Shown piece by piece: positions 3,088-10,521 of a stretch of DNA of 10,521 bases; within the stretch, counting starts at the first letter, position 1; each line of letters starts with the position of its first letter. The stretch is from NCBI GenBank assembly GCA_009839585.1, contig VXPI01000337.1:1-10521 (forward strand), in the 5' to 3' direction. A program made the translations under genes and the position numbers. The DNA comes from Gammaproteobacteria bacterium. Its GTDB lineage: Bacteria > Pseudomonadota > Gammaproteobacteria > Arenicellales > Poriferihabitantaceae. A model generated the notes under the pieces. That model did no database searches, was not told where the DNA came from, and was given only the letters and a program-made list of their open reading frames with translations.

Positions 3088-5160
3088 CTATCTGCCAAAG
3101 ATGCGGCGCACGGCAATCCCGCCGTAGATATTCCGTTCCGGTGCAGGCTCATAGTAGCGCGAACCAAAGGCGTTGATCCGTACATTGCTGTTGTATTCCT
3201 CGTCAAAGAGGTTGTTCACTCCGAAAAACGGAGATATCTCCCAGTTGCCCACGAGTTTTTCAAGGCCAAGGCGCAAATTGCTCACAGTGTAGCTGTCCAC
3301 CTTGGTCTGGTTGGCATTATCGGCATACAGGCTGCCGGCCACATTGGCATCCCAGGTAAAGTAATGGCCGTTCTTGCCAAACCAGGATATTTCGAGATGC
3401 AGCAAGTGTTCCGGAATCCCCGGAATCAGTTTCCCGTCAAACGCGTCACCATTTGCGCTGGAAAAGCGTTCAAACTCAAAATCCGACCAGGTCAATGCGG
3501 ATGAAAATTCAAATCCATGACCCAGCCTTGTGGCATATGCCAATTCAATCCCCTTGCGGCTGGATTCGCCTGCATTTCGATAGAAAGTACGTCCTTGCTG
3601 GCTTTCCAGCTCATAAGGAATTAATTCATTTTTGACATCAATCGAGAACAAGGCGACCTCGTAGCGATGCCGGCCTGAGAGCGACTTGATGCCTACTTCA
3701 TAGTTTGTGGATTCCTGAGCCTCAAGTGACTGGTCGAATCCCCCGCCGTTGGGGTTCGCCAGTTCCGTCGTGGTTGGCGTCTCGAACCCGCTGGAGATAT
3801 TCGAATAGAGGCGAACGTTTTCGGTTAATGCAAAACCCAGGCCCACCATGGGACTGATTTGGTCAAAGGTAATGCTTCCCGAATCATCCCCGTTCGAGGA
3901 CGTGATATAGTGATCCGTGACATCGTACTCCACCTCATCATAACGAAGACCCAGTGTCAATTCGGAACGATCAGTCAGGCTGGTTTCGTTTTGGAGAAAA
4001 ACACCGAGGGACGTTACCTCCTCGTTCTGGTCCAGCACGCGATCGCCGGCGATACCCCCCTCCTGATTCTGGAATCGGAAACGATCATCATCCTGCATAT
4101 CGAAATCGAGACCCACGAGAAGACGGTTGGGCTTGCCGCCAATACTGCTCTCCCAGGTATACTGGGCACCAGCACCCAGAACGCTGCGACCGAATTTCAC
4201 GATACCATTGCCAGACAATGGAAGGCTGGCGTCAAAATCCCGGTTGATGTGGTGGACCCGGGTTTGCAGGGAGTGACCTTCGGCTAGTTGAGTACGCAAC
4301 ATTACGCCCAAGCGGTCCTGTTTCAAGGCTTCCCCGGTATTGAAAAACAGGTTCCGGTCACGAGCCTGCCTTCGATTCGCCTCCACGCTAGCTGCATTGA
4401 TTCCTCCCGGATCATTGGCAACAGGCTGATCGGTATGATGCATGGTCGCAACGATTGTTGTGTCCTCTGACAGGTCGTACTCCAGACGGGTATTGAACTG
4501 ACGGTTTTCTGCTTCGCTATGGTCACGATATCCATCAGTACGGGTATCGGAAACATTGACCAGATAATTCAAGTCTCCCGTCTGGCCGCCAAACTTGAAT
4601 TGATGTTTCTGTAGTCCGTACCCGCCCCCGCTTGACCTTATTTCGGCGAATGGTTCGGGAGGTCCCCGCTCACTCTCCACAATGATGGCACCACCAGAGG
4701 CATTCCCGTACAGCGAGGATGCCGGTCCACGAATCACCGTGATCTGTTCGGCCGAACCGATGTCAATCCCATCGACAGACCCCTGGCCATCTGGCAGGGT
4801 TTCCGGTATGCCGTCGACGATCACCTTGATACCACGAATTCCAAAGGCAGCACGGGCACCGAAACCACGAATGGAGGCACGCAAGTCCTGGGCAAAGTTA
4901 TACCGGTTCATCAAGAACAACCCCGGTACACTGTCAAGAGATTCATCGAGTCCAAGCTGCTCGGTGCCCAGCTGAATATCATCCCGGCCAATGCTGGTGA
5001 CTGCGGACGGAATTTCTGCCAGGTTTTTCTCAACCCGGGTGGCGGTAACATCAATCGGTTCTAGTGTGATGACTTGGGCAGACACACTGGTGCAGACAAA
5101 CGGGAATGCCATTCCAAAGAAAAACAGTTTCTTTGCCATTGGAAACATTGCGTGCCTCAT
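3088..5160 (-). CDS. pqqU: TonB-dependent outer-membrane receptor, PqqU (YncD)-like; likely PQQ importer
   Basis: A 690-residue outer-membrane receptor. A signal peptide ends near SVSAQ (residue 29) and a TonB-box-like EPIDVTATR is at 34-42. The plug has NFAQDLRASIRGFGARAAFG (88-107), VDGIPETLPDGQG (115-127) and IRGPASSLYGNASGG (143-157). The barrel ends with VNNLFDEEY...RYYEPAPERN. Several marks match E. coli YncD/PqqU specifically: DPGG (250-253), DHYITSSNGDDSG (416-428), SGFETPTTTEL (457-467) and the RYYEPxPxRN end. PqqU imports pyrroloquinoline quinone, and a PQQ-type dehydrogenase lies in the same cluster, so PQQ is the favoured substrate. It follows the cytochrome gene by 75 bases. The first ATG has AAGAAGAAAG upstream. 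ATG codons at residues 5 and 8 are alternatives, the former having GAGG 6 bases before it. A siderophore role is less likely but not excluded. Confidence 0.85.
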   Translation of the reverse strand: MRHAMFPMAKKLFFFGMAFPFVCTSVSAQVITLEPIDVTATRVEKNLAEIPSAVTSIGRDDIQLGTEQLGLDESLDSVPGLFLMNRYNFAQDLRASIRGFGARAAFGIRGIKVIVDGIPETLPDGQGSVDGIDIGSAEQITVIRGPASSLYGNASGGAIIVESERGPPEPFAEIRSSGGGYGLQKHQFKFGGQTGDLNYLVNVSDTRTDGYRDHSEAENRQFNTRLEYDLSEDTTIVATMHHTDQPVANDPGGINAASVEANRRQARDRNLFFNTGEALKQDRLGVMLRTQLAEGHSLQTRVHHINRDFDASLPLSGNGIVKFGRSVLGAGAQYTWESSIGGKPNRLLVGLDFDMQDDDRFRFQNQEGGIAGDRVLDQNEEVTSLGVFLQNETSLTDRSELTLGLRYDEVEYDVTDHYITSSNGDDSGSITFDQISPMVGLGFALTENVRLYSNISSGFETPTTTELANPNGGGFDQSLEAQESTNYEVGIKSLSGRHRYEVALFSIDVKNELIPYELESQQGRTFYRNAGESSRKGIELAYATRLGHGFEFSSALTWSDFEFERFSSANGDAFDGKLIPGIPEHLLHLEISWFGKNGHYFTWDANVAGSLYADNANQTKVDSYTVSNLRLGLEKLVGNWEISPFFGVNNLFDEEYNSNVRINAFGSRYYEPAPERNIYGGIAVRRIFGR
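3458..3508. repeat. 51-bp direct repeat, copy 2 (inside the receptor gene)
   Basis: This is the presumed source copy of the repeat at 87-137. It lies inside the intact reading frame of the TonB-dependent receptor on the minus strand and encodes the SALTWSDFEFERF region near residues 552-568. The two copies are about 3.37 kb apart and bracket the AAA ATPase gene, the transposase remnant and the 3' end of the receptor gene. Confidence 0.9.
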
Positions 5161-5235
5161 GCTTTCTTCTTAATTGAATTCTCCCAGACTGACTCTGGCT
5201 AAAAACAGATCATGCCGGAAGGGTAGAACAAATAC

Positions 5236-5652
5236 CTATTGGTCTGGAAGGGTCACCGAAATCTGGATTGAGGCATACCAGGCGGCCAGATTCCGGATAT
5301 CCTGATCACTCAGGGACTGGGCAATAATGGACATCTGGGAGTGTTGCCGTTTGCCGGAGCGATAGGCCTCAAGCTGGATAATCGTGTAGTCCTCTCTCTG
5401 GCCACTAAGGTTGGGAACCATGGCCATCGTAGTCAACCCATCAATACCGTGGCATGTCTGGCAAGCGACTTCTGCCTTTCGTTTTCCAGCCTGTATATCG
5501 TCTGCCGATAACTGGGCAGACCCAAGGCAAGACAGCGCGACACACAGGTATGAAATGCCTATCAGGATCAATCGAATCCTGTTGGGAAAGAAATTCCATA
5601 CGCCAGCCAGAAAATCATTCCGTCCATTGCTCAACCGGTTACTGTCAATCAT
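5236..5652 (-). CDS. Small periplasmic class I cytochrome c
   Basis: A 138-residue monohaem cytochrome c. The haem-attachment site is CQTCH (C64, C67, H68). The sixth ligand is probably M107 in HSQMSIIAQ, followed by the C-terminal helix DIRNLAAWYASI typical of cytochrome c553/c4-like proteins. A hydrophobic export segment (about residues 26-45) precedes LSADD and gives a periplasmic product. The N-region before it is unusually long (about 25 residues), and the annotated ATG has TAAGG only a base or two upstream, so the true start may be further in at a non-ATG codon. It lies between the PQQ-type dehydrogenase and the PqqU-like receptor. The likely role is to accept electrons from the reduced dehydrogenase and pass them to the respiratory chain. 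The partnership is inferred from position. Confidence 0.88.
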   Translation of the reverse strand: MIDSNRLSNGRNDFLAGVWNFFPNRIRLILIGISYLCVALSCLGSAQLSADDIQAGKRKAEVACQTCHGIDGLTTMAMVPNLSGQREDYTIIQLEAYRSGKRQHSQMSIIAQSLSDQDIRNLAAWYASIQISVTLPDQ

Positions 5653-5799
5653 GCCTTACAGGTCAATTACGTCAAAACCCGGAACTTCAGGGCCGAGGTA
5701 CAGCAACCAACAACTCCCAGACATCGCTGATCCCGGTTTCCTGGATCTCGATGCGACAGCATCACAGGATCAAGGACTGGCTAGTAACAAGAGTAAAAG

Positions 5800-5825
5800 G
5801 TGGTGCCGACATCCATCGGCACCAC
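5800..5825 (-). terminator. Hairpin after the dehydrogenase gene, probable (leaky) terminator
   Basis: A perfect 10-bp GC-rich stem (GTGGTGCCGA at 5800-5809 with TCGGCACCAC at 5816-5825) closes a 6-base loop, only 12 bases after the dehydrogenase stop on the minus strand. The strand continues CTTTTAC, so the T-tract is short. It could end most dehydrogenase transcripts while letting some reach the cytochrome and receptor genes, or it could protect the 3' end of a processed mRNA. Confidence 0.6.
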
Positions 5826-5837
5826 TTGGTCTGCAGA

Positions 5838-7124
5838 TTAATTTTCGTAGGAAATGCGGTACACCGCACCAACCTTGTCGTCAGAGACCAGGATGGACCC
5901 ATCCACATATTGCTGCACATCAACCGGGCGGCCGGAATATACTCCATTGGGCTGCAACCACCCTTCGGCAAATGGAACCATTTCCTTCGCATTGCCTTCT
6001 TCATCCAGAAAAGTCACCATGACACGGGCGCCGCGTGGAACCACGGCATTCCAGGAACCGTGCTGTGTGCTGAAAATTGCCCCTTTGTACTTTTCCGGGA
6101 ACATGTCACCCGTATAGAACATCATTCCTAGATCAGCCGCATGGGCAATGGTTTCCACTTGTGGCGGAACATAGCGCGCAAGCTTGTCCGCAGGAATTTC
6201 TTCATTGGCATACTCGTTGGTACGCACTTCACCGCCACCATAGTGGGGGTGGCCATACCACATGCCATCCTCGGAAATCTTGTTGAGTTCTCCGGGAGGG
6301 GTTTCATCACCCATGCCATCAACCTGGTTGTCCGTGAACCACAGGGTGCCATCAGCCGGATTGAAGGCATGACCTACTGAATTTCGGATGCCCGTGGCGA
6401 TGACCTCACGATTGCTTCCATCCCGACCCATGCGAAGCATTCCTCCGATTCCTACCCTGTCATACAGTTCCTGCTTGTCTGGTGGAGACACATTGAACGG
6501 CTGGCCGAGGCTTACATAGAGGTTGTTGTCAGGTCCAATGGCACATACTCTGGCCGTATGATTGTAGGACTCTTCCTCGGGTGGAATCAGGTCACCCTGA
6601 CCCACAATGGGGATTGCAACCGTGTCGGGACTTTCCATGAAAAACTCGGCTGCAGGGAACATCAGGACACGATTGCGTTCAGCCACAAACAGGAAGCCGT
6701 CCGGTGAATAGCAGACTCCATTTGGGATGTCGAACCGGACACTCGGGCTGAATTCCTCAACGGTATCCGCCATATTGTCAAGATCGCGGTCTGTGGCCGC
6801 CCATACCTTGGTCTTGCGTGTGCCAATCCAGACTGTACCCTTGTTTCTCCCAACAGCCATATGCCGAGCATCGGGAGCCAGTGCAAAAAGCTCTATCTTG
6901 AAGCCTTCAGGCAGTGAAATGGTTTCCAGGATTTGCTTGACATTGTCAGCGAAGGCACCGCCTTGGGCAATCACCTCACCCGATTCCGTGCCGGTGGTCT
7001 TGAATGCACCAAGCTTGCTCAGATTGGCATCATCGGATGCAAGGACATTCGCCCCAGTTAACAGCATGCATGATGCAACAGCCATTGAACCCAGACAATT
7101 TGGGATTGATAGTTTTCTGTTCAT
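5838..7124 (-). CDS. Periplasmic PQQ-dependent sugar (L-sorbosone/aldose-type) dehydrogenase
   Basis: A 428-residue beta-propeller quinoprotein of the GSDH/sorbosone dehydrogenase type. A signal peptide ends near residue 30 (NVLAS-DD). Family marks in order are: NGVCYSPDGFLFVAER (135-150); NHTAR (188-192), whose His matches the catalytic base of soluble glucose dehydrogenase; GPDNNLYVSLG; ATGIRNSVGHAFNP (243-256), with the PQQ/calcium-region Arg-Asn; LWFTDNQVDGMGDE (261-274); QHGSWN (354-359); GARVMV (366-370); and GRPVDVQ...DGSILVSDD (398-416). It oxidises an aldose or aldehyde sugar in the periplasm using PQQ and calcium, but the exact substrate cannot be read from sequence. ATG is preceded by TTAGGAAAA at normal spacing. 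It is the first gene of the minus-strand cluster, facing the exb operon divergently. The family is firm, with residue equivalences by analogy. Confidence 0.9.
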   Translation of the reverse strand: MNRKLSIPNCLGSMAVASCMLLTGANVLASDDANLSKLGAFKTTGTESGEVIAQGGAFADNVKQILETISLPEGFKIELFALAPDARHMAVGRNKGTVWIGTRKTKVWAATDRDLDNMADTVEEFSPSVRFDIPNGVCYSPDGFLFVAERNRVLMFPAAEFFMESPDTVAIPIVGQGDLIPPEEESYNHTARVCAIGPDNNLYVSLGQPFNVSPPDKQELYDRVGIGGMLRMGRDGSNREVIATGIRNSVGHAFNPADGTLWFTDNQVDGMGDETPPGELNKISEDGMWYGHPHYGGGEVRTNEYANEEIPADKLARYVPPQVETIAHAADLGMMFYTGDMFPEKYKGAIFSTQHGSWNAVVPRGARVMVTFLDEEGNAKEMVPFAEGWLQPNGVYSGRPVDVQQYVDGSILVSDDKVGAVYRISYEN

Positions 7125-7209
7125 AGTGATATTTTCCTAATCTGAAATTAGTTAAGATAGCCGGATGAAAGGCCAGAAGTTAGAAAGAACAAACCTTTTA
7201 ACCAATCAA

Positions 7210-7215
7210 AGTATA
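7210..7215 (-). promoter_or_regulatory. Candidate -10 element for the dehydrogenase operon
   Basis: On the minus strand the hexamer TATACT lies about 90 bases before the dehydrogenase ATG. No good -35 sits at 17 bases, so either an activator is needed or the true promoter is elsewhere in the spacer. Confidence 0.25.
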
Positions 7216-7304
7216 CACTTGTGTTTTTGACTGTTATGAATATTTGTCGTCAAAGGGACTATTTTCCGTATAGACTTGACTGTAAAAGATTTGCCATGAA
7301 TTCG

Positions 7305-7333
7305 TTGAAATTGCTATTTTTTTTCGGTATTTT
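7305..7333 (+). promoter_or_regulatory. Candidate sigma70 promoter for the exb/tonB operon
   Basis: TTGAAA (7305-7310) and TATTTT (7328-7333) are separated by exactly 17 bases on the plus strand. The predicted start near 7340 would leave a leader of about 145 bases before the ATG at 7485. A palindrome at 7361-7375 falls just downstream of that start, a usual place for a repressor site. Confidence 0.4.
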
Positions 7334-7360
7334 TTCGGACTGGGAAGCGATTATATTCCA

Positions 7361-7375
7361 AATTAACGGTTAATT
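7361..7375. promoter_or_regulatory. 15-bp perfect palindrome, candidate operator
   Basis: AATTAAC and GTTAATT form perfect 7-bp arms around a single central G. The 10-mer ATTCCAAATT also occurs twice in direct orientation 18 bases apart (7355-7364, 7373-7382), overlapping both palindrome arms. It is not a Fur box. The regulator is unknown and not encoded in the window. Confidence 0.4.
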
Positions 7376-7484
7376 CCAAATTGAATTGCTCATGATACAG
7401 TTACGAAAATTATCGGGTTGTTTTTTGCGTTTTTCACTTGCAATCAAGATATTGCCCATTCACTTTCCTAATTCTTGTTCCTTC

Positions 7485-7916
7485 ATGTCAAACTATATTT
7501 TCAAGAAAATTGTGCTTATGGTTGTTCTTCTCGCAGTACTGCTAACCCGTTCAGGATTGACATATGCGGATGGTACAGTGTTGGTAGAGCTCAACAAGCT
7601 GGAATCTTTCGAAACAGGGTGTCACGCTTATCTTGTTTCACACAATCAGACTCCGGAAAACTTCGCCGAGCTAATTCTTGACGTGGCAATCTTTCGCGAG
7701 GACGGCATTATCGAGAAGATTATAGGGGTGTCGCTGGCACCGCTACCGTCGAACAAGACGGGCGTCAAGGTCTTCAATCTGCAATTGTCGTGCAATCAGA
7801 TCGGCCGGTTGCTCATCAATGATGTTACCGAGTGCAGAAATAACCAAAGCATGCTTGACGACTGTCTGGATCTTTTGTCTGCGTCTTCGCGCGCCTCGGC
7901 AGAACTGATCAAGTAG
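7485..7916 (+). CDS. Small secreted four-cysteine protein of the exb/tonB operon
   Basis: With the ATG at 7485 this is a 143-residue precursor with a classic signal peptide (KK near residue 7, hydrophobic core, cleavage after LTYA at 28). An in-frame extension from 7386 is possible but would bury the signal. Neither start has a clear ribosome binding site. The mature part contains four cysteines (C46, C103, C117, C127), enough for two disulfides, and beta-rich segments such as LILDVAIFREDGIIEKIIGV and SNKTGVKVFNL, with LLINDVTEC after C103. I recall similar conserved periplasmic proteins of unknown function beside ExbB in ExbB-ExbD-ExbD-TonB operons of other proteobacteria, but cannot verify this here. 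It has no transmembrane segment after cleavage. A periplasmic accessory role to the TonB motor or receptor is inferred from position only. Confidence 0.8.
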   Translation: MSNYIFKKIVLMVVLLAVLLTRSGLTYADGTVLVELNKLESFETGCHAYLVSHNQTPENFAELILDVAIFREDGIIEKIIGVSLAPLPSNKTGVKVFNLQLSCNQIGRLLINDVTECRNNQSMLDDCLDLLSASSRASAELIK

Positions 7917-7926
7917 ATAAAGCGGT

Positions 7927-8088
7927 ATGGCCTGTCAGTTGCATGAGTCTCCGATTGGCGGAGCAGTCAATATCGGATGCTTTCTGGTGCCGCATTCTAA
8001 AATTCCTGCCGAAAGGCTTCAGTTCCAGAAGAATACAGCCTCCGGGATAGAGCAGGGGTATCTTGCTGACGCCAAGCGAGTGTATTGA
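7927..8088 (+). CDS. Possible small ORF (53 aa) between secreted protein and exbB
   Basis: ATG at 7927 opens a 53-residue frame ending in TGA at 8086-8088, filling nearly the whole 190-base gap before exbB. The product begins MACQLHESPIGG and ends ADAKRVY. It shows no signal peptide, membrane segment or motif I recognise, and only a poor AAAGCGG upstream. It may be chance. It is listed because it occupies an operon gap and starts 11 bases after the previous stop. Confidence 0.22.
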   Translation: MACQLHESPIGGAVNIGCFLVPHSKIPAERLQFQKNTASGIEQGYLADAKRVY

Positions 8089-8106
8089 CAGGTGCAAGAC
8101 TTTTTC

Positions 8107-8781
8107 ATGTCGGAACAGGTTATGAACCTGTTTGTTCTGGGAGGGCCAGTAGCCCTGGTTTTGGTAGTTCTGTCCATTGTGGCATTAACCATTATCTTGG
8201 TCAAAGTCTGGCAATTCAAGACTATGCGGATCGGTCATACCCATCCTGCGCGAGAGGCCCTGGATATTTACCGAAAGGGTCTTGCCAGTGAGTCCCTGGA
8301 AGTCTGCAGCACATCTCCGAATCCAGCGGTTCTGGCAGTGGCGAGAGCCATTCGTGGCCATCTACGATCTCTTCCTGATCAGGCTATCCGTGAGGAAGTC
8401 ACGCGCTATGGCACCGATGCACTAGAGTCTCTGCGTAGCGGGTTCAGAATGCTGGAGATCATCGCCTCGCTGTCGCCCCTGCTAGGTCTGCTCGGTACGG
8501 TGCTTGGGATGATTGATGCATTTCGTGAAATGGAGCAGTCAGGAAATCAGGTCAATCCAGCGTTATTGTCAGGGGGAATCTGGGAGGCATTGCTCACAAC
8601 AGCGCTTGGGCTGGCCGTGGCGATAGTGGTAGTGGTCATGCTTGGCTTTCTGGAGAGAAGAGTAGACCGCCTGTCCCATGAAATGAGCAACATCGTCACA
8701 GGAATTTTTACTATCGATCTTTCTGAAGATTCAGCAGGAGATGATCATGCCGGTTCCATTCCACAGCACAGCAGTTCTTGA
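8107..8781 (+). CDS. exbB: ExbB/TolQ/MotA-type proton channel protein
   Basis: A 224-residue inner-membrane protein, the stator of the TonB energising motor. The first membrane helix is at about 9-36 (LGGPVALVLVVLS...). A cytoplasmic loop follows, then the signature SLSPLLGLLGTVLGMIDAF (121-139) in the second helix and GGIWEALLTTALGLAVAI (156-173) in the third, with the conserved Glu in WEAL. Length and layout are standard for the short ExbB form, without the extra periplasmic N-terminal domain. GTG at 8092 gives a five-residue longer version. ATG at 8122 has GGAACAGG just upstream and is a third option. The gene overlaps the following exbD by 35 bases, so the two are translationally coupled. 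With ExbD and TonB it converts proton motive force into receptor opening. Confidence 0.93.
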   Translation: MSEQVMNLFVLGGPVALVLVVLSIVALTIILVKVWQFKTMRIGHTHPAREALDIYRKGLASESLEVCSTSPNPAVLAVARAIRGHLRSLPDQAIREEVTRYGTDALESLRSGFRMLEIIASLSPLLGLLGTVLGMIDAFREMEQSGNQVNPALLSGGIWEALLTTALGLAVAIVVVVMLGFLERRVDRLSHEMSNIVTGIFTIDLSEDSAGDDHAGSIPQHSSS

Positions 8782-9172
8782 CCGGATCAACAGTAACGGC
8801 AGACCTCGGCGAAATCCAATCAGTCTTACACCCCTGATTGATGTCGTATTCATTCTGCTTATATTCTTCATGTTGGCCTCAAATTATGAAGATTGGCATG
8901 CAATTCCCATTGATGCACCTGTCAAAGCCGAGGCCTCGATTCATTCCGAACCCGATGTGGTGCTTATAGAGATTGGTCCCAACCAGCTGCGCTTGTCGGC
9001 TGAAACCATTTCCCGGGAGGTCTTGATTGCCCGTCTGGAAAATCAATTGCTTGAACATCCCGGTTTGGTCGCCCTGATAAAACCTGTTGATGGCGTACTG
9101 TTGCAGGAAGCAGTCTCCTTGATGGACCTGTTGTCAGAAGCCGGCATAGGGCGAATGTCCCTGATCAGGTAA
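8747..9172 (+). CDS. exbD: ExbD proton-channel subunit, canonical copy
   Basis: A 141-residue protein with a short cytoplasmic N-terminus, one membrane helix at about 28-46 and a periplasmic C-terminal domain. The motif ISLTPLIDVVFILLIFFML carries the essential proton-carrying Asp at residue 32, so this copy should be functional. ATG at 8747 is chosen over the in-frame ATG at 8741 because AGGAG (8736-8740) lies six bases upstream. It overlaps the exbB end by 35 bases. A second, divergent ExbD follows after 18 bases. The periplasmic part ends with the usual small alpha/beta fold (VALIKPVDGVLLQEAVSLMD). Confidence 0.93.
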   Translation: MPVPFHSTAVLDRINSNGRPRRNPISLTPLIDVVFILLIFFMLASNYEDWHAIPIDAPVKAEASIHSEPDVVLIEIGPNQLRLSAETISREVLIARLENQLLEHPGLVALIKPVDGVLLQEAVSLMDLLSEAGIGRMSLIR

Positions 9173-9190
9173 CAAGTTGGAAATTGTTTC

Positions 9191-9592
9191 ATGATACGGT
9201 TTGACAAACCCAGGGCAAAGACAGACGATGAGCGAATCCTCCCACTCGTCAATGTGGTTTTCCTGTTATTGATCTTCGTGATGATTACTGGAGAAGTCAT
9301 TTCTCCCGACCCGTTCCAGACAGAGCCTCCGCATTCAACAAGAGAAGGATGGACAGGAACGCCCGAAACGACGGTTTATGTTGGAGCAGATTACCGGATT
9401 GCTCTTGAAGACATGCCAGTTACTCAAGTCATGCTGGCCAGGCTGTTGCATGAAAAAGAAGAACTGGGGACAGTTCGGCTAAAAGCCGATGGCCGGGTAC
9501 CCGCATCACGAGTTGTTGCAATCATGGAATTACTCGCATCAGCGGGTGCTCGGGAGGTTGATCTTATTACCGTTTCTGCAGTATCCCCATGA
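9191..9592 (+). CDS. exbD: ExbD paralogue with Asp-to-Asn substitution in the proton motif
   Basis: A 133-residue ExbD-family protein with the same layout as its upstream neighbour: a short N-terminus, one membrane helix (about 16-34) and a periplasmic domain ending VRLKADGRVPASRVVAIMEL. The helix reads RILPLVNVVFLLLIFVMI, with Asn21 exactly where the other copy has the essential Asp, so this subunit should not carry protons by the normal route. The rest of the motif (P-L-x-[DN]-V-V-F-x-L-L-I-F) is conserved, arguing against simple decay. The start has TTGGAA nine bases upstream. It overlaps tonB by four bases (ATGA). It may pair with the canonical ExbD as an asymmetric dimer inside the ExbB ring, which is inference. 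Confidence 0.88.
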   Translation: MIRFDKPRAKTDDERILPLVNVVFLLLIFVMITGEVISPDPFQTEPPHSTREGWTGTPETTVYVGADYRIALEDMPVTQVMLARLLHEKEELGTVRLKADGRVPASRVVAIMELLASAGAREVDLITVSAVSP

Positions 9593-10521
9593 GAATCTCC
9601 GGGCGAAACTGGGTCACTGCTTTTGCCCTTGCCGTTTTGGTGCATGCGGGCATTGCTTTTGCGTGGCCGTTTCTGTCGACCGGCCCCAGGACCCGAGCCG
9701 CTGAAGAAGATGCTGTTCATGTGTCACTGGGAAAATGGACGCATGCGCTGACTGTTGATTCCAGAGAGACGTCCGTCGCTCCAGAAGTACCTGTCGTCCG
9801 GACACGGGAAGTCAGCCCCTCCATTTCAACCGAATCCTCCGTCTTGAGTGAAGTGGTCAGGGGTGTCCATGTCCAGCAAGTCAGGGATATAGATGAGGCG
9901 GTGAACGTTCTTCCAAATGAAGACATGCTCTCGGAGAAGGTTGAACCCGGGGCATCAACCGAAGTGGCAAACTCGGCAGATTCCGTGTTCGATGCTGCAA
10001 CAGCAGTCAGGCTGCCCGCAATTGAAGGATTTCTGGTCACGGTGGAACCTGCAGAGTCTGGGCAGGCTAATGCTGAACCGGTAGAATCCGCACGAATCAA
10101 TACCCTGGAGAAAGACATTCCATCGGCGAACAGGGAGCAGGACCCATTATCGGAAGAAGAGAGGCTGCAAAGGGCTGCAGGTGAGTCCTCTCTTGATCAT
10201 TCGGCAAAGCAAGAGGAAAGTGAAAATGGAAGTGTATTGGTCCGGCAAGAGCCCGTTGACCAAAATCTGAGTGCGTTGCCTCAGAGAGAAGTCAATCCGG
10301 TAATCCATGAATATACGGGCTACGCATTGCAGCAGGAATACCTGAAAGTACTGATGTCGCAGATCAGTGCACAAAAGAGGTATCCGAATGCCGCGAGACG
10401 CCGGGGTGCAACGGGAGTGGCAACCGTGCATTTTACCATTCTCGCTGACGGGAGCATGGAATCTCCGAAACTTGCCGAAAGTTCGGGCAACAGGCATCTT
10501 GACAAGGCAGCGCTCGGAATG
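9589..10521 (+). CDS. tonB: TonB energy transducer (3' end beyond window)
   Basis: An open frame of 311 codons runs off the window edge. A single N-terminal membrane anchor (WVTAFALAVLVHAGIAFAWPF, about residues 8-28) begins after a short basic tail, with the usual His in the anchor. A long spacer of about 210 residues follows, then the TonB C-terminal domain: YLKVLMSQISAQKRYPNAARRRG (from about residue 251), GVATVHFTILADGSM, and SSGNRHLDKAAL, matching the family pattern YP..A...G..G.v.v.F.i..dG and SSG...LD.aA. Only the last few residues are missing. The spacer is unusual: acidic, with scattered prolines and not the proline-rich Glu-Pro/Lys-Pro repeats of classical TonB. The ATG overlaps the previous stop (ATGA), indicating translational coupling. 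It should energise the PqqU-like receptor across the divergent promoter region. Confidence 0.92.
   Translation, partial: MRISGRNWVTAFALAVLVHAGIAFAWPFLSTGPRTRAAEEDAVHVSLGKWTHALTVDSRETSVAPEVPVVRTREVSPSISTESSVLSEVVRGVHVQQVRDIDEAVNVLPNEDMLSEKVEPGASTEVANSADSVFDAATAVRLPAIEGFLVTVEPAESGQANAEPVESARINTLEKDIPSANREQDPLSEEERLQRAAGESSLDHSAKQEESENGSVLVRQEPVDQNLSALPQREVNPVIHEYTGYALQQEYLKVLMSQISAQKRYPNAARRRGATGVATVHFTILADGSMESPKLAESSGNRHLDKAALGM

Follow-up and report, generated by a model that had tools for sequence, protein, structure and literature searches.

Why would a bacterium encode a receptor resembling PqqU, the TonB-dependent importer of pyrroloquinoline quinone (PQQ) in Escherichia coli, directly beside a dehydrogenase of a kind that may use PQQ? 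This question is raised by contig VXPI01000337.1 (assembly GCA_009839585.1) from a gammaproteobacterium of the family Poriferihabitantaceae. The window analyzed here is that entire contig of 10,521 nucleotides (contig C291 of genome G000, which comprises 2.42 Mb in 420 contigs and is 75.6% complete). A preliminary description had placed a YncD/PqqU-like receptor, a PQQ-type sugar dehydrogenase, and a cytochrome c on one strand, divergent from a set of TonB motor genes, and had proposed a module that imports the cofactor for the enzyme encoded beside it; every gene that it named is an open frame at the place given. This core idea stands up to the sequence evidence, which adds a conserved enzyme site, an operon that recurs, and a broader pattern across genomes, and we consider it highly probable that the locus is a PQQ acquisition-and-use operon.

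In the mechanism that we propose, the receptor, powered by TonB-ExbB-ExbD proteins encoded across the divergent region, would carry external PQQ, possibly together with a metal ion, to the periplasm, where the six-bladed AA12-type dehydrogenase would be loaded with PQQ and calcium. The enzyme would oxidize a sugar-like substrate and pass the electrons to the adjacent c-type cytochrome. The cell would depend on PQQ made by other organisms because, as far as can be seen, it has no pqqC.

The receptor groups with PqqU

The receptor gene (positions 3088 to 5160, minus strand) encodes a protein of 690 amino acids with a plug and a barrel. Its top curated family is PqqU (NCBIfam NF041535, 439.6 bits), with the runner-up at 182 bits, and its nearest solved structures in the PDB are those of YncD/PqqU, 6v81 and 9c4o (E of about 1e-106; the following match has an E of 3e-18). 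A tblastn comparison with the E. coli K-12 pqqU locus gave an E value of 4.9e-109, and the two proteins are 33% identical. We then placed the receptor in a tree of 41 sequences, consisting of 31 receptors picked from 119 loci, E. coli PqqU, and nine outgroups (E. coli BtuB, FhuA, FhuE, FepA, and CirA, the second receptor of G000, and three second receptors from other loci). All 32 PqqU sequences, the window receptor among them, separate from all outgroups with a branch support of 1.00, and the closest partner of the second receptor of G000 is BtuB (support, 0.97).

We used alignment to map onto the receptor the PQQ contacts given by Munder et al. 2025 (PMC12124388). The PqqU signature is retained as F106 (the aromatic residue at E. 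coli position 99), R307 (R304), and R360 (R365), and E. coli Q84 and R536 are conserved as well (Q91 and R524). Position 99 is tyrosine in E. coli and phenylalanine here, a substitution that PMC12124388 accepts. In a larger alignment of 120 rows (119 loci plus E. coli), the signature is complete in 111 rows. Among the nine exceptions, position 99 falls in a gap in four, and position 304 is not arginine in five. The tree, the family score, and the key contact residues thus agree with the initial identification and support a PqqU-like receptor, for which PQQ would be the transported ligand.

The enzyme retains an AA12-type PQQ pocket

The gene at positions 5838 to 7124 (minus strand) encodes 428 amino acids, passes the cut-off of the GSDH family (PF07995; 45.9 bits against 25), and has an N terminus that looks signal-like by eye. 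A search of the PDB with the single sequence gave no match at an E value of 0.001 and weak ones only at 10; a profile of 35 enzyme sequences was needed to reach solved relatives. A model of the enzyme is closest to fungal AA12 PQQ enzymes, with a six-bladed propeller nearest AA12 structures. With the TrAA12 family model (PF22807), the window enzyme was not listed at an E value of 0.01, and its close relative P0008 scored 12.5 bits against a cut-off of 30.9.

The residues given as contacts in CcPDH (R273, H363, R430, N431, D451, H539, H560, W563, N564, and R621) correspond, in the same order, to R87, H189, R247, N248, D269, H328, H355, W358, N359, and R399 of the window enzyme, and each mapped residue is conserved in 43 to 47 of 47 aligned rows. 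The side-chain ligands of PQQ and calcium in CcPDH, His560 included, are all matched (R87, H189, R247, N248, D269, H328, H355, and R399). These alignments support a conserved PQQ pocket, and the enzyme would use PQQ; its substrate and electron route are likewise proposed. The description as a PQQ-type enzyme stands, but the label "sorbosone-type" was dropped in favor of AA12-type, since profile and structure comparisons place the enzyme nearer AA12 pyranose dehydrogenases than sorbosone dehydrogenases.

The window enzyme differs from the AA12 pyranose dehydrogenases CcPDH and TrAA12 in being a bacterial, stand-alone domain of about 19% identity, accompanied by a separate c-type cytochrome rather than a fused AA8 cytochrome b. 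Unlike the GSDH enzymes E. coli YliI (Asd) and Acinetobacter sGDH, it carries a His-Gly-Ser-Trp-Asn loop of AA12 type; the CcPDH counterpart of this loop is described as replacing Lys377 of sGDH. Three longer homologues of the enzyme (L068, L069, and L072; about 650 to 700 amino acids) extend past the propeller, possibly into a fused cytochrome domain.

A cytochrome gene and a hairpin lie next to the enzyme gene

On the same strand as the enzyme and receptor genes, as first described, lies a gene for a single-heme c-type cytochrome of 138 amino acids (positions 5236 to 5652; PF00034, 34.0 bits; one CxxCH motif, at residue 64). A cytochrome gene adjoins the enzyme gene in 17 of 17 examined loci with an enzyme identity of 50% or more and no contig edge between the enzyme gene and its flank; among the more distant enzymes that we examined, most lack a cytochrome neighbor. 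The cytochrome is likely the electron acceptor of the enzyme.

At the enzyme/cytochrome junction, a GC-rich hairpin (positions 5800 to 5825, minus strand) begins 12 bases past the enzyme stop codon. Hairpins occur at this junction in all five genomes that we folded (G000, G002, G003, G006, and G029), with GC-rich stems of 9 to 12 bp that differ in sequence, start 10 to 17 bases past the stop codon, and have z scores of -3.0 to -6.7. In the relatives, they lie at approximately 9496 to 9523 in L015, 9271 to 9294 in L016, 11787 to 11814 in L017, and 11159 to 11181 in L018. The hairpin may stabilize the enzyme mRNA relative to the cytochrome and receptor portions and may govern how much enzyme is made relative to the downstream gene products. 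A role as terminator was considered and dropped, as the relatives show no consistent U-run. In L067, the enzyme and cytochrome genes overlap as called.

The receptor-enzyme linkage recurs across lineages

We searched 60 related genomes, G000 included, for the receptor (E of 1e-60) and the enzyme (E of 1e-30) and found them in 12 and 19 genomes, respectively. The enzyme is present in 11 of the 12 receptor-bearing relatives compared with 8 of the 48 others (Fisher P = 2e-6, uncorrected for kinship), and the two genus genomes without PqqU are without the enzyme too. Enzyme, cytochrome, and PqqU genes form one-strand runs in G000, G002, G003, G006, G029, G035, and G056; in G004 the three pieces sit at contig edges, and in G024, G042, and G047 the enzyme gene is away from the receptor gene. 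Outside this sample, the same order appears in L103, L118 (Ectothiorhodospiraceae bacterium WFHF3C12), and L169 (a Burkholderiales metagenome-assembled genome), which are among 80 named loci, and in L067 of genome G166, a locus found from the enzyme side whose receptor is not among the matches at an E value of 1e-100. The L169 enzyme and receptor are 37% and 36% identical, respectively, to those of the window; for L067 the values are 51% and 30%. Because linked and unlinked enzymes alternate in the enzyme tree, the link was gained or lost more than once.

To place these cases on a common scale, we scanned 119 receptor loci (12 from the relatives, 34 from a class-level sample, and 73 named loci, that is, 80 minus 7 duplicate contigs) with profiles built in this analysis. 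Genes for PQQ enzymes number 21 within 1.5 kb of the receptor and 6 at 1.5 to 9 kb, a 13-fold enrichment per kb (P = 4e-10); with the relatives excluded the counts are 13 and 4 (12.5-fold; P = 1e-6). The gsdh and pqq8 profiles were made from adjacent genes, which biases these counts toward near matches. The window-enzyme profile, made from linked and unlinked enzymes, gave 11 near and 2 far matches over all loci and 4 and 2 without the relatives (P = 0.02). Among the neighbors of the receptor, Pfam confirms PF07995 genes in G098, G237, G380, G321, and G183 and PF01011 genes in G047, G421, and G097. On a Nitrospina contig (L150), an AA12-like gene truncated by the contig end lies 131 bases after PqqU; none was found in the stretches scanned of Nitrospinaceae L145 and L147 and Nitrospinota L097. 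The neighborhood survey that the preliminary description had called for thus shows a conserved linkage that recurs in other lineages, and the distance profile led us to reject a neighborhood due purely to chance.

Six-bladed enzymes accompany PqqU where pqqC and PF01011 quinoproteins were not found

If the operon serves scavenging, how do PqqU-bearing genomes divide by their PQQ enzymes and PQQ synthesis? Neither pqqC nor, at an E value of 1e-20 or lower, PF01011 quinoproteins were found in any of the seven genus genomes. Among the 60 relatives, pqqC occurs in 4, including G021 and G022, which belong to the same family as the window genome and have the enzyme without PqqU. In all, 13 of the 19 enzyme-bearing relatives have PqqU or pqqC.

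A class-level sample of 369 genomes was searched for PqqU (E of 1e-100 or lower; 35 genomes) and PF07995 (E of 1e-8 or lower; 198 genomes). A six-bladed PF07995 gene is present in 35 of 35 PqqU genomes versus 163 of the 334 others (P = 9e-11), some of which may hold a more distant PqqU, as G166 does. Genome size accounts for part of this difference: among genomes of at least 2.0 Mb, PF07995 is present in 33 of 33 PqqU genomes versus 26 of 38 receptor-negative ones (P = 2e-4), the latter drawn from G060 to G115, the range to which this control is restricted and in which all sizes were listed. All 15 PqqU genomes of the class sample without PF01011 carry a six-bladed GSDH gene.

Pooling these 35 genomes with 11 further relatives gave 46 PqqU genomes. 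PF01011 is absent from 24 of them, and pqqC exceeds the family cut-off in none of the 24 (G380 has a sub-cut-off match). The six-bladed enzyme is present in 23 of the 24, the exception being G052, which was tested with the window enzyme only. Among the 22 PF01011-positive genomes, 15 have pqqC. Within the class sample, a GSDH gene directly adjoins PqqU in 6 of 15 PF01011-negative versus 0 of 20 PF01011-positive genomes (P = 0.003).

These proportions bear on a published survey of PqqU. In PMC12124388, the enzyme searches listed used PF01011, PF13360, PF13570, and one PQQ dehydrogenase profile from another paper, and 67% of PqqU carriers had a PQQ enzyme; for the enzyme-less third, which includes Nitrospinota, its authors suggested either an unrecognized enzyme or an antioxidant role. 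Our enzyme-negative set was defined by PF01011 alone and need not equal that of the survey. E. coli YliI is treated as an accepted six-bladed PQQ enzyme in PMC13088180, and the six-bladed family may supply PQQ users that the survey missed. We lean, somewhat guardedly, toward the broader proposition that the PQQ users missing from many PqqU bacteria without PQQ synthesis or eight-bladed quinoproteins are six-bladed enzymes of the GSDH/AA12 type, and that the operon recurs as a scavenging unit, which several lineages have assembled or retained and which in G029 forms one run with a motor of its own. This pattern suggests PQQ-using enzymes in importing bacteria without classical PQQ enzymes. It also gives named PqqU-enzyme protein pairs and, for uncultured bacteria, connects a shared cofactor with a specific oxidation in the periplasm.

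Alternative readings of the receptor and enzyme

Several observations weigh against a PQQ acquisition-and-use operon. The receptor lies under the equivalog cut-off of NF041535 (439.6 against 1,200 bits), a strict model that the G166 receptor likewise fails (612 bits). E. coli Lys274 is replaced by Glu277, and the K274E substitution impaired E. coli PqqU. Of 11 compared E. coli contacts, 5 differ otherwise (Q121S, Q308A, Q310L, N477T, and Y481N), so the loss of contacts that had been named as a test of the PQQ reading is partial and spares the signature residues. A linked propeller of another subfamily (L094) is without R87, D269, H328, and H355 in the alignment. The preliminary description saw no PQQ synthesis gene; the search behind this point covered pqqC, found in 0 of 7 genus genomes, with G000 itself 75.6% complete and pqqA, -B, -D, and -E not searched. 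In six relatives that have the enzyme (G028, G032, G037, G038, G054, and G058), our thresholds brought up no PqqU and no pqqC, and for 94 of the 107 receptor loci from beyond the relatives, no PQQ-enzyme gene was found within 1.5 kb.

Some of the receptor differences can be set beside published variants. In PMC12124388, replacing Q308, Q310, or Y481 singly by alanine is reported to have left growth at the wild-type level; Y481 falls in a gap when more receptors are aligned. According to the same paper, glutamate takes the place of K274 in a considerable fraction of modeled PqqU proteins; it does so in 97 of our 120 aligned receptors. This residue raises the possibility that the receptor imports a complex of PQQ with calcium or a lanthanide instead of free PQQ. 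Modeling in PMC12124388 puts a metal at this site, but this published support consists of modeling with generally low metal confidence, and the receptors of L169 and L067, which have the identical gene order, carry lysine. We regard import of a metal complex as a tentative and rather doubtful alternative to import of free PQQ.

Could receptor and enzyme instead be neighbors without a shared function, the receptor taking up another ligand and the propeller using no PQQ? TonB-dependent receptors within one family can differ in ligand, many PF07995-like propellers are not known to have been assayed, and the L094 propeller shows that a linked protein can be without several AA12-type PQQ residues. 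Against this stand the conservation of PQQ residues in both proteins, the recurring gene order with enzyme genes enriched near the receptor, and the joint presence or absence of receptor and enzyme in the genus. Taken together, they make an unrelated pair very improbable, and we retain the PQQ acquisition-and-use operon.

The TonB set resembles a general motor

What would energize the receptor? Divergent from the enzyme genes, on the plus strand, lie ExbB (positions 8092 to 8781; PF01618, 103.1 bits), two ExbD genes (8741 to 9172 and 9191 to 9592; PF02472, 69.1 and 57.2 bits), and TonB (9589 to 10521; PF03544, 47.8 bits). All exceed their Pfam cut-offs. The ExbB-ExbD-ExbD-TonB genes initially described are thus present, with two corrections: TonB is cut by the contig end, with positions 2 to 50 of the 79 of TonB_C present, and the cassette has a first gene that had gone unlisted. 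That gene (7386 to 7916, plus strand) encodes a small protein with a hydrophobic N terminus and no match in Pfam, NCBIfam, or PHROGs. A database search returned seven such proteins, the window's own included, and gave no pointer to what the motor serves; the database copy, P0121, is 33 residues shorter. A homologue precedes exbB in G002, G003, G004, and G006, and hence, with G000, in all five PqqU-bearing genomes of the genus.

The motor had been called private and the module self-contained, claims that our results do not support in that form. The only TonB_C matches in G000 are the window TonB and a TolA in a tolQRA-tolB-pal cluster, and no second TonB set was found in this 75.6% complete genome. 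A second receptor, on contig C300, is BtuB-like (TIGR01779, 499.9 bits against a cut-off of 599.7). The cassette is next to the enzyme gene in three of five PqqU-bearing genus genomes (G000, G002, and G004); it is unlinked in the other two (G003 and G006). In G002, G003, and G006, TonB_C likewise matches one protein strongly and a second one weakly. The cell appears to have no TonB motor besides the window set, which it would retain for two cofactor receptors. That it is a general motor, serving the PqqU-like and BtuB-like receptors and lying beside the PQQ operon by happenstance in some species, is in our judgment probable, despite three observations that favor a closer tie. Cassette-type ExbB (about 102 to 106 bits) was detected in all five genomes of the genus that bear PqqU, and the matches listed include none from the two that do not; no receptor other than PqqU was found in G004 (80% complete); and G029 has a different set in one run with the operon genes. 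With either kind of motor, this TonB set would power this receptor.

G029, from another family, is the best case for a dedicated motor. Its locus L018 (6806 to 12256) holds a one-strand enzyme-cytochrome-PqqU-ExbB-ExbD-TonB run in which exbB, exbD, and tonB lie 3' of the receptor gene with gaps of 27, 14, and 66 bases. This set differs from that of the window, its ExbB frame is short (144 amino acids), and G029 carries other TonB_C genes too. Elsewhere, a TonB gene is immediately convergent to PqqU in L038, L039, L040, and L043 (by Pfam for three and by a profile built in this analysis for L040), whose genomes, from three families, also have pqqC and PF01011 enzymes. In Nitrospinota L097 (8041 to 11854), exbB follows PqqU by 655 bases and is itself followed by exbD at the contig end. 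Overall, 8 TonB genes lie within 1.5 kb of PqqU and 7 at 1.5 to 9 kb (P = 0.005), a weaker signal than that of the enzymes.

Comparison with known systems

Receptor-linked TonB-ExbB-ExbD sets occur, for example, in heme and Vibrio systems; here the linked receptor is PqqU. The window receptor belongs to the same family as E. coli PqqU (YncD) (Munder et al. 2025), keeps its signature, and is found without pqqC. It differs in having glutamate at K274 and in its operon-like run with a PQQ enzyme and a cytochrome; E. coli pqqU sits between mcbR and yncE. PqqU and PQQ scavenging are already covered by prior work, and a review (PMC11658791) describes E. coli PqqU and widespread orthologues. A figure legend in PMC10875860 names a PQQ enzyme, cytochrome c, and TonB-dependent receptor together in XoxF3 clusters; XoxF3 is a lanthanide methanol dehydrogenase, a classical quinoprotein unlike the window enzyme. 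Searches at the level of titles and the openings of abstracts, with most subscription papers outside their reach, returned no work pairing PqqU with a GSDH or AA12 enzyme.

Other features of the window

Searches of the window for tRNA genes and Rfam families gave no match. The divergent intergenic region between the enzyme and TonB genes (positions 7125 to 7385) contains promoter-like sites on both strands, identified as consensus matches only. Downstream of the receptor lies an AAA_14/DUF4143 ATPase gene (409 to 1671); near this side of the receptor, four genus loci (L014 to L017) instead carry peptide-type ABC transporter genes, identified by Pfam in G002 only.

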